Source of the DNA: Flavihumibacter soli
Lineage (GTDB): Bacteria; Bacteroidota; Bacteroidia; Sphingobacteriales; Sphingobacteriaceae
Assembly: GCF_010692725.1 (NCBI RefSeq)
Contig: NZ_JAAFZB010000096.1
Coordinates: forward strand, 1 to 64,000
Length of the DNA stretch: 64,000 nucleotides
Direction of reading: 5' to 3'
The notes under the pieces were generated by a model that had not been told where the DNA came from, did not search any database, and was given only the letters and a program-made list of their open reading frames with translations. Position numbers and translations under genes: made by a program. This document shows positions 4,867 through 7,272 of this stretch, in pieces (positions within the stretch are counted from its first letter, which is position 1; every line of letters starts with the position of its first letter).

Positions 4867-5958
4867 TTAATATACTTTAACCATGAAAATATAACTTTCC
4901 ATCTTTTTGATCTGATCAGTCCGGCTAAGTCCAGACATAGAATTCTTTTTATTAATTGTCAGCTTAGTGTCGAGCGAATCCTGAGGGATGGCTCCGATTG
5001 ACTGCAAAATATAGTTCGATTTAATAGCAAATGCAGCACCCTCAGTTTGAGTCTGTTTCGCATTAATGATACCAACGACATTTCCTTTAGTATCGAGCAG
5101 CGGGCCACCGCTATTGCCAGGATTAACTGAAATATCTACCTGATAAGCAATGGTATCCCCTGCATAGCCTGTCAGGGAACTTAGATATCCCCTGTTAACA
5201 ACCCGGTCATCTCTTGGAAAGCCAATTGTATATACATCTTCTCCAAGATCTGATCCGGATTTCTTGAATGTATATGGAAGAGCCGCAAGTGACTTAAATC
5301 TCGAGTCTACGATTTGAAGAACCGCTATATCATACGCCGGGTCGACATAAATTTGCTTAACCTTAAATGATTCGCCATCGGAATTTTGAACATAAACTGA
5401 ATCAGCATCTTTCACCACATGATAATTTGTAATAACATAACCATTTGAAGAAAGAGCGAAACCAGTTCCCCCAAACTCACCCGGATTCACCGGGCCTTTA
5501 TCTGGGATGTCATTTATCCCTTTAATTAATTCATTCTGCGACCGTTTGATATTATTGATGTCGCGTCTTAATGCGCTATAGTTATTAGTTATCGTTTTGC
5601 TGAAGTACCCGGTTGATAAGAGGGTTGCAAAAACTGTAACAAGCGCGACTGTCGCCGCGATAGCTGTATTAAATCTGTACTTCCTGAATAATGTCCTGAT
5701 CTTAACAGATACCGGAAGAACATTTGCTTTTATTTCCTCTATATCCAAGTGCTGGTATGCAGCTTCCATATCGGCAATCAGTTGCTTCCTTTGACCATAC
5801 TCCGTGATTGTATTGATAAAATTTTGATGTTCAACAACTCTATGATCAATCGATGGGTCATCATTTCTAAGCTTCTCAAAAGCAGCATGCTCCTCTGAGG
5901 ATAGCTCACCTTTCAGATATGCTTCTATTAGATTTAATAATTCAATTTCACTTTTCAT
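4867..5958 (-). CDS. Membrane S1C (HtrA-like) serine protease with an anti-sigma-like cytoplasmic N-domain
   Basis: The 363 residues fall into three parts. Residues 1-90 are a helical cytoplasmic region opening IEAYLKGELSSEEHAAFEKL, resembling the N-domains of Bacteroidota anti-sigma factors. Residues about 97-117 are one membrane helix; basic residues just before it (RKYR) predict N-in. A short coiled coil (122-148) leads to a periplasmic trypsin-fold domain with GTGFALSSNGYVITNYH (His180), YDIAVL (Asp210) and NPGNSGGP (Ser283), a complete triad. There is no PDZ domain. It starts 10 bases after the ECF sigma gene, as anti-sigma genes usually do. The protease call is firm. The anti-sigma role is inferred from topology and context; a plain membrane protease is the alternative. 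Confidence 0.88.
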   Translation of the reverse strand: MKSEIELLNLIEAYLKGELSSEEHAAFEKLRNDDPSIDHRVVEHQNFINTITEYGQRKQLIADMEAAYQHLDIEEIKANVLPVSVKIRTLFRKYRFNTAIAATVALVTVFATLLSTGYFSKTITNNYSALRRDINNIKRSQNELIKGINDIPDKGPVNPGEFGGTGFALSSNGYVITNYHVVKDADSVYVQNSDGESFKVKQIYVDPAYDIAVLQIVDSRFKSLAALPYTFKKSGSDLGEDVYTIGFPRDDRVVNRGYLSSLTGYAGDTIAYQVDISVNPGNSGGPLLDTKGNVVGIINAKQTQTEGAAFAIKSNYILQSIGAIPQDSLDTKLTINKKNSMSGLSRTDQIKKMESYIFMVKVY

Positions 5959-6540: not shown

Positions 6541-6569
6541 TTAATACTTAATATTTGAAATTGTAACCC
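6541..6569 (-). promoter_or_regulatory. Putative ECF-sigma promoter, copy A (own operon)
   Basis: Read on the minus strand: GGGTTAC (6569-6563), 15 bases, GTATTAA (6547-6541). The two boxes and the spacing match copies B, C and D exactly; the spacer sequence does not. Confidence 0.75.
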
Positions 6570-6611
6570 AATAATAGGGAAATATAAATTTGTTTTTCTA
6601 AAAGACCAGTT

Positions 6612-6640
6612 GGGTTACTTAATCCCCTTACAGGTATTAA
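6612..6640 (+). promoter_or_regulatory. Putative ECF-sigma promoter, copy B (lipoprotein 1)
   Basis: GGGTTAC (6612-6618), 15 bases, GTATTAA (6634-6640). Transcription would start near 6644. This rules against the TTG at 6610 and disfavours the ATG at 6643 as the start of the lipoprotein gene. Confidence 0.75.
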
Positions 6641-6669
6641 TTATGACTACCAAACTTAAAAAAACCGTT

Positions 6670-6840
6670 ATGAAAAATTTATTGAAATTCGGCTTTTTAG
6701 CTATTGCAGTTTCCTTATCTGTTGCCGCCTGCAACACAGAGAAAAAGGGCGATAGTAGTTCAGACTCTACAGTCTTGTCTGATACATCAGCAATGGACAC
6801 TACTATGCTAGACACAATGACGACAGATACTACACTGTAA
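6670..6840 (+). CDS. Small lipoprotein 1 (sigma-linked cluster)
   Basis: This 56-residue protein begins MKNLLKFGFLAIAVSLSVAAC, a signal peptide with lipobox VAAC and acylated Cys21. The mature part is about 36 residues of Ser/Thr/Asp with loosely repeated DT or DS steps. I chose the ATG at 6670 because both paralogues downstream start with the same MKNL-KFGFLA and because the promoter boxes end at 6640. No function is known. It is transcribed away from the sigma operon from an identical promoter and ends in its own terminator. Confidence 0.75.
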   Translation: MKNLLKFGFLAIAVSLSVAACNTEKKGDSSSDSTVLSDTSAMDTTMLDTMTTDTTL

Positions 6841-6857
6841 TCAGTCTACTCTAAACA

Positions 6858-6894
6858 TAAAACCGTCCCGAAAATTTTGAGACGGTTTTTTTTA
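6858..6894 (+). terminator. Terminator of lipoprotein gene 1
   Basis: AAAACCGTC and GACGGTTTT form the stem, followed by a T-run, 20 bases after the stop. Confidence 0.8.
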
Positions 6895-6902
6895 TTTTCA
6901 CA

Positions 6903-6931
6903 GGGTTACCTTTCGGAATTTTAAGTATTAA
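6903..6931 (+). promoter_or_regulatory. Putative ECF-sigma promoter, copy C (lipoprotein 2)
   Basis: GGGTTAC (6903-6909), 15 bases, GTATTAA (6925-6931), 35 bases before the ATG. Confidence 0.75.
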
Positions 6932-6965
6932 GGGTAATTATTTAAAATTTAACACTAAAATTAGA

Positions 6966-7175
6966 ATGAAAAACTTATTCAAATTCGGTTTCTTAGCTTT
7001 AGCTATCTCTTTATCAGTTGCAGCTTGTAACACTAACAAAAGCGAAAACGCTGCTTCTGATTCAATTGATTCAACTGCTGAAGTAGCTACTGATTCTATT
7101 GATTCTTCTGCTAACGCATTAACTGATTCAGTTGATTCAACTGCTGATGTAAAAGCTGATTCAGTTCAACACTAA
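6966..7175 (+). CDS. Small lipoprotein 2 with acidic 11-residue repeats
   Basis: This 69-residue protein begins MKNLFKFGFLALAISLSVAAC, with a lipobox at Cys21. The mature chain is a tandem 11-residue repeat: DSIDSTAEVAT, DSIDSSANALT, DSVDSTADVKA, then DSVQH. The 11-mer period suggests a long amphipathic helix, as in other 11-mer repeat proteins; this is inference. It is a near-copy of lipoprotein 3, with which it shares promoter boxes and a downstream hairpin, so the pair arose by a tandem duplication of about 330 bp. Function unknown; a lipid-anchored envelope protein made under stress fits the context. Confidence 0.85.
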   Translation: MKNLFKFGFLALAISLSVAACNTNKSENAASDSIDSTAEVATDSIDSSANALTDSVDSTADVKADSVQH

Positions 7176-7190
7176 TTAACGATTAACCTT

Positions 7191-7228
7191 AAAAAAAACC
7201 GTTGCCGTTATGGTAACGGTTTTTTTTA
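7191..7228 (+). terminator. Terminator of lipoprotein gene 2
   Basis: AAAACCGTTgCC and GGtAACGGTTTT form the stem, followed by a T-run, 15 bases after the stop. Confidence 0.85.
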
Positions 7229-7243
7229 TTTTCTTATAATACA

Positions 7244-7272
7244 GGGTTACCTTTTATTCTTTTCGGTATTAA
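7244..7272 (+). promoter_or_regulatory. Putative ECF-sigma promoter, copy D (lipoprotein 3)
   Basis: GGGTTAC (7244-7250), 15 bases, GTATTAA (7266-7272), 25 bases before the ATG. The spacer differs from copy C although the genes are near-identical duplicates. Confidence 0.75.

Follow-up and report, generated by a model that had tools for sequence, protein, structure and literature searches.

A conserved two-box promoter-like motif connects an ECF sigma operon encoding a DegS-like protease fusion with sequon-rich small lipoprotein genes in Flavihumibacter soli and its relatives

The window analyzed here is a stretch of 64,000 nucleotides from the genome of Flavihumibacter soli (contig NZ_JAAFZB010000096.1, positions 1 to 64,000; assembly GCF_010692725.1). 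On its minus strand, it carries an operon that encodes an extracytoplasmic function (ECF) sigma factor followed by a predicted membrane protein, and three genes for small lipoproteins lie on the opposite strand (Table 1). A motif of two short boxes, GGGTTAC-N15-GTATTAA, precedes the operon and each of the lipoprotein genes. An earlier sequence-only reading of this DNA described the motif and proposed that it marks an autoregulated ECF regulon; it overlooked both the fusion nature of the second operon gene and the sequon nature of the lipoproteins, which are described below.

Table 1. Features of the sigma operon and the divergent lipoprotein genes (coordinates in the window)
Feature	Coordinates	Strand	Remarks
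Anti-sigma-like/protease fusion, 363 aa, second operon gene	4867..5958	-	
ECF sigma factor, 189 aa	5969..6538	-	GTG start; TIGR02937, Sigma70_r2
Two-box copy A, promoter-like, before sigma operon	6541..6569	-	3' end 2 nt from sigma GTG
Two-box copy B, before lipoprotein 1	6612..6640	+	
Small lipoprotein 1, 56 aa (65 aa from in-frame ATG 6643)	6670..6840	+	4 sequons, mature part
Two-box copy C, before lipoprotein 2	6903..6931	+	Leader about 34 nt
Small lipoprotein 2, 69 aa	6966..7175	+	6 sequons
Terminator-like hairpin and T tail, 3' of lipoprotein 2	7190..7228	+	Pattern match only
Two-box copy D, before lipoprotein 3	7244..7272	+	Leader about 24 nt
Small lipoprotein 3, 69 aa	7297..7506	+	7 sequons

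The sigma factor is of the ECF type (group 4), scoring 75.8 bits against TIGR02937 (cut-off 42.9) and 30.8 against Sigma70_r2 (cut-off 24), with a weak match to Sigma70_r4 (13.5 against a cut-off of 24.1). It is 80% identical to a protein of Daejeonella lutea, and the nearest solved sigma factor by sequence is SigW (E 1.8e-5). All four exact copies of the motif were found at the positions and on the strands first reported, with no fifth exact copy within the window, and none arose in 100 dinucleotide shuffles. The whole 4.44 Mb genome contains six exact N15 copies, all of which stand before genes: the four in the window, one located 40 nt before a DUF4294 gene (C93:317240), and one before a DUF4349 lipoprotein gene, but 290 nt away from it (C96:895179). 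With other spacer lengths, a single N14 copy (L001) was detected; it lies within a stop-free frame of 755 codons and was dropped as a promoter candidate. When up to two mismatches were allowed, this genome yielded 33 sites as compared with 28 for the reversed motif, so only near-exact copies are informative here, and the relaxed scan was rejected as a source of additional targets. There are 27 inexact sites, of which 24 were inspected and 22 fall within stop-free frames of at least 208 codons, the other three having no assigned locus.

Relatives of the sigma factor were collected by a protein search, and the best 80 of 87 were kept as loci; these derive mostly from Sphingobacteriaceae and also from Chitinophaga, Adhaeribacter and one Cytophagaceae metagenome-assembled genome. 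The motif (≤1 mismatch) precedes the sigma gene in all 80 scorable cases, that is, in 79 of these 80 loci and in the window, with 76 exact N15 copies, one exact N16 copy and three copies with one mismatch; the remaining locus (L085) also has an exact motif, but its sigma ORF is cut and it was hence not scored. An alignment built independently of the motif shows the two boxes as some of its best-conserved columns, with a short conserved tract after the first box. The proposal that fixed boxes stand against a changing spacer thus held for the boxes and only in part for the spacer, whose first 4–5 bases are conserved (approximately AATTT before sigma and CTTTT before the lipoproteins), as is also seen in the alignment that was not anchored on the motif. 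On the opposite strand, 140 copies within one mismatch of the motif were found, 101 of them exact, in 77 of 81 loci (the best 80 of 87 and the window); of the four loci that have no such copy, two (L057 and L062) contain less than 300 nt of upstream sequence. A small lipoprotein ORF follows 135 of the 140 copies, at a median distance of 37 nt to the ATG. Among the other five, two lack a downstream ORF of 40 aa, a further two belong to L075, and the last belongs to L087, where the downstream ORF resembles a lipoprotein that the pattern did not pick up. The number of opposite-strand copies varies from one to five per locus, and in several loci (L023, L046, L069 and others) the lipoprotein genes are tandemly amplified, each with its own motif; the signal peptides of these amplified lipoproteins appear, by eye, more alike than their mature tails.

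GGGTTAC and GTATTAA begin 22 nt apart. The consensus for E. coli sigma-E is GGAACTT-N15-GTC, in which GG and GT are also 22 nt apart. The -35 element of this consensus is given as GGAACTT in PMC8103513. The earlier suggestion of a possible new promoter specificity is only partly supported: the letters differ from the GGAAC/GTC elements, while the layout is that of known ECF promoters. The sigma start codon follows the second box by 0–3 nt in 70 of the 80 scorable cases (79 loci and the window) and by 12–17 nt in the other 10. If the boxes are promoter elements, a +1 at the usual distance would coincide with the start codon or lie just within it, and the sigma mRNA would have to be leaderless or almost leaderless, unless the annotated start is wrong. 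The orthologous sigma genes mostly start with GTG, and a leaderless mRNA, if real, may be conserved across genera. In Flavobacterium psychrophilum, leaderless transcripts account for 5.5% of the mapped mRNAs, as described in PMC9723704.

The motif and the operon also occur together at the level of whole genomes. Among 61 genomes of the family, 49 contain the exact motif (104 sites, as compared with three for the reversed motif), and the N-terminal part of the fusion is found in 51, including all 49 with the exact motif. No exact motif occurs in the 10 family genomes that lack the fusion (G007, G008, G010, G023, G024, G032, G033, G043, G049 and G060), four of which are drafts less than 95% complete. 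Two genomes have the fusion and no exact N15 site (G037 and G045), the former having an exact N16 site. In a phylum sample of 296 genomes, a strong fusion match (E ≤ 2e-15) was found in 20 genomes, the exact motif in 18 and both in 17, with 40 exact sites as compared with seven for the reversed control. A single genome of this sample has the exact motif and no fusion match (G212), and the three with a strong fusion match and no exact motif (G172, G066 and G076) each have a site with one mismatch near the fusion gene.

Of the 104 exact sites in the family, where a 29-mer found identically in more than one genome was assessed at a single locus, 98 were assigned to sigma (43), small lipoprotein (48), DUF4294 (4) or DUF4349 (3) genes, and the remaining six comprise one possible DUF4349 operon and five sites with no recognized target. 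The possible operon (G034) was kept apart from the direct DUF4349 sites; its motif stands before an ORF of 159 aa, and DUF4349 comes next, separated by about 225 nt. The sites in G048 and G051 precede a 100-aa lipoprotein-like ORF and a 109-aa ORF, respectively, neither of which was assigned; the ORF downstream of the G026 site is one that we take, by eye, to be glyA-like, and no gene was found at the G011 site. Only one of the 104 sites is clearly situated inside a gene (G036). For the unlinked targets, the motif (≤2 mismatches) was found upstream of DUF4294 in 20 of 51 fusion-bearing genomes (17 of 30 and 3 of 21) and in none of nine fusion-less ones, DUF4294 being without it in the other 31 fusion-bearing genomes, and it was found upstream of 16 of 19 DUF4349 genes. 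These upstream regions contain no reversed or opposite-strand control site within two mismatches. The same two boxes are thus placed before the sigma gene and before its candidate targets and are kept across species, and both the co-occurrence with the operon in the 61 and 296 genomes and the sites at unlinked orthologous genes support the autoregulated ECF regulon that had been proposed. Two further arrangements were observed. Several DUF4349 genes (L225, L228, L229 and L224) have AGGTTAC with an N16 spacer about 15–25 nt before the ATG, possibly a weaker promoter variant. In four genomes of family f2 (G092, G202, G149 and G179; loci L271, L275, L284 and L285), the exact motif precedes a protein of about 96 aa that resembles AMPK1_CBM/CBM48, a match taken from L284 only, and this protein is a possible lineage-specific target.

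The second operon gene encodes a protein with an anti-sigma-like helical N-terminus (residues ~1–80), a probable transmembrane helix (~97–116, by eye) followed by a helical linker, and a DegS/HtrA-like serine protease domain (~160–325) with the residues H180, D210 and S283. It adjoins the sigma gene in 78 of 80 loci (the best 80 of 87), the other two loci ending at that point, and 78 of 79 copies retain the triad, the remaining one (L055) being cut by the end of its contig. The structural model of the fusion (mean pLDDT 82.5, pTM 0.56) has DegS-deltaPDZ as its best PDB match (E 9e-14), so that the protein combines a DegS/HtrA fold with an intact Ser-His-Asp triad; its partial match to NCBIfam degP_htrA_DO (106.6 bits) is below the cut-off of 416.2. 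No PDZ domain was found with Pfam, and in the model the protease domain is followed only by one helix and one strand. The conserved C-terminal KVY was considered as a PDZ ligand, a reading that was dropped because in relatives it is followed by 0–3 residues. For the N-terminus, the commonest weak Pfam match is zf-HC2 (16 of 31 members at E ≤ 1, below the cut-off), and the five best Foldseek matches of its model in the PDB are to RslA and RsiW (E 2.5–5.1), none having E ≤ 0.001. Residues 1–120 contain no cysteine and therefore no zinc motif, which places the domain outside the zinc-binding anti-sigma (ZAS) type. A profile of the N-terminus also matches frames of about 150–320 aa in the phylum sample (E 1e-10 to 1e-5), which may be related ordinary anti-sigma factors without a protease. 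The fusion is likely to be the anti-sigma factor of the adjoining sigma, an assignment that is weak.

The best family match of all three lipoproteins in the window is PG1828 (NF050142), with 34.0, 34.7 and 38.3 bits; these scores are below the 50-bit cut-off and membership was rejected. Their mature parts are rich in the Bacteroidota O-glycosylation sequon D-S/T-A/I/L/V/M/T (PMC12871550, PMC8550257), and PMC12871550 describes near-complete occupancy of this sequon as the general case in the glycoproteomes that it covers. Sequons were counted in 146 distinct motif-driven lipoproteins with a lipobox found by pattern (80 loci, the best of 87; the window; and 14 chosen further loci). The mature parts contain 776 sequons, as compared with a mean of 143.7 after residue shuffling (maximum 175 of 500 shuffles) and 147 in the reversed tails. 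At least three sequons are present in 139 of the 146 lipoproteins and none in two, and 904 of the 944 aspartates in the tails are followed by S or T. The median density is 11.8 sequons per 100 aa, as compared with 0.19 in six unrelated proteins of the window. As non-cytoplasmic proteins with this sequon, the lipoproteins are candidate Bacteroidota O-glycoproteins, predicted to be mucin-like and glycosylated.

Taken together, these observations are best read as an autoregulated ECF regulon in which the boxes are the promoters of the sigma factor, the fusion is its inhibitor and a coat of O-glycosylated lipoproteins is the output, a reading to which we assign a probability of roughly 0.8. Its promoter component is strongly supported by the sequence comparisons. 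The two boxes would be the -35 and -10 elements used by the sigma factor, which would transcribe its own operon in a positive feedback and, divergently, one to five small lipoprotein genes, together with unlinked DUF4294 and DUF4349 genes in some lineages. The co-transcribed membrane fusion would hold the sigma factor inactive, its cytoplasmic N-terminus binding sigma and its DegS-like protease domain facing the periplasm. The regulon probably senses the envelope: upon an envelope signal, the protease domain would either allow the anti-sigma part to be cleaved or cleave it itself. A site-2 protease of the M50 type would act next and set sigma free. M50 proteases are the usual site-2 enzymes, and the genome encodes one. 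By analogy with release through regulated intramembrane proteolysis (RIP), the fused domain may serve as the site-1 protease. With mature parts that consist of strings of these sequons, the induced lipoproteins would form a glycosylated coat. A more specific version is offered only tentatively: the jobs of RseA and DegS would be united in one polypeptide that cuts itself on envelope stress, in cis or within a trimer, and that is joined to a promoter code of its own and a mucin-like coat as the main output; as its products would be dense glycosylation substrates that share its compartment, such a switch may track the capacity for lipoprotein export or O-glycosylation.

An operator bound by an unlinked dimeric regulator, rather than a sigma promoter, would account for the small inverted repeat TAC-N15-GTA within the motif, in which each triplet is the reverse complement of the other at a distance of two helical turns, and it would ease the awkward position of the second box, which abuts the sigma start codon. 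This explanation is very improbable, as the outer letters GGGT and TTAA are asymmetric, the good sites at DUF4294 and DUF4349 genes lie on the gene strand only and never on the opposite one, the genomes with the exact motif are nested in those with the sigma operon, and the layout is that of ECF promoters. If the boxes are promoters, the fusion might nonetheless be a membrane HtrA protease that is produced together with the sigma factor and acts as an effector and not as an anti-sigma factor; the similarity to anti-sigma factors is weak and the protease domain is clear. Its position directly after the sigma gene (78 of 80 loci) speaks against this, as do zf-HC2 and the anti-sigma structures as leading weak matches of its N-terminus and the shorter frames, perhaps ordinary anti-sigma factors, that the N-terminal profile also finds, and an effector role is accordingly rated as quite unlikely.

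For the protease domain, a role as only a sensor or scaffold, with another protease making the site-1 cut and the triad serving a separate clean-up function, is a possibility of some weight, if not the favored one: no substrate is known, and there is no PDZ domain to read a signal. Against it stand the catalytic residues, kept in every copy that is not cut, and the closest fold, that of DegS, which is known for site-1 cleavage of an anti-sigma factor (PMC8103513). As for the lipoproteins, their tails are of low complexity, and the sequon-like arrays could be an unglycosylated by-product of a D/S/T/A/K composition, a view to which the bias against glycosylation of abundant surface proteins described for the O-glycoproteome of P. 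gingivalis (PMC8729774) lends some weight. It is the order of the residues, however, and not their composition that is enriched, as both the shuffled and the reversed tails and the near-constant S or T after aspartate indicate, and this explanation is judged to be rather unlikely.

A class I anti-sigma domain is reported nearby for only 6% of Bacteroidetes ECF sigma factors (PMC7406223), which leaves the control of most of them open. For one widespread group, the fusion being present in 51 of the 61 family genomes sampled (about five sixths), the present locus offers a compact and testable answer, consisting of a sigma factor, a protease-fused inhibitor-like protein and a sharp promoter. The locus further links an ECF regulon with candidate substrates of O-glycosylation, and the role of O-glycosylation in Bacteroidota is described as still unclear in PMC12871550. 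In the open-access papers searched, which did not include the main ECF classification, no description was found of an anti-sigma/HtrA fusion or of a GGGTTAC motif with an ECF sigma factor.

Several known systems resemble this one in part. The Dma/Das pairs (ECF21) and EcfO of Bacteroidales are likewise ECF pairs with an unusual extracytoplasmic end of the anti-sigma factor, and are linked to envelope and surface changes in PMC13088901 and PMC9308784; Dma proteins end in a tether and an outer-membrane beta-barrel, whereas the fusion ends in a protease without a beta-barrel, and membership in the Dma anti-sigma family was rejected. The SM6 promoter class of Flavobacterium provides a further case of ECF-type promoters before an ECF sigma/anti-sigma pair in Bacteroidota; unlike in the system described here, its -10 box is CGT and its targets belong to type IX secretion (PMC9723704). 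Bacillus subtilis SigW/RsiW is related through SigW as the nearest solved sigma factor and RsiW, which ranks high among the weak fold matches of the N-terminus, but RsiW is a zinc-binding anti-sigma factor (5wuq), whereas the N-terminus of the fusion lacks cysteines, and the core letters of the promoters differ. The SigW -35 region ATTGAAACCTTT (PMC8103513) has ATTG and ACCTTT in common with ATTGGGTTACCTTT-type sites in this system, and the alignment of letters is ambiguous because ACCTTT offers a second register against the SigW -35 element, one that shortens the spacing by 2 nt. The closest parallel in overall design is the sigma-E/RseA/DegS/RseP pathway of E. coli, which shares with the present system an ECF sigma factor, a membrane anti-sigma factor (here a putative one), a DegS-type periplasmic protease domain, an M50 protease and the promoter layout. 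In F. soli and its relatives, however, the anti-sigma-like and DegS-like parts form a single polypeptide in which no PDZ domain was found, no sequence relation to RseA was seen, the boxes have other letters and the main targets are small lipoproteins; for the single polypeptide, the missing PDZ domain and the different targets and boxes, the system is not filed as a member of the sigma-E/RseA/DegS pathway.
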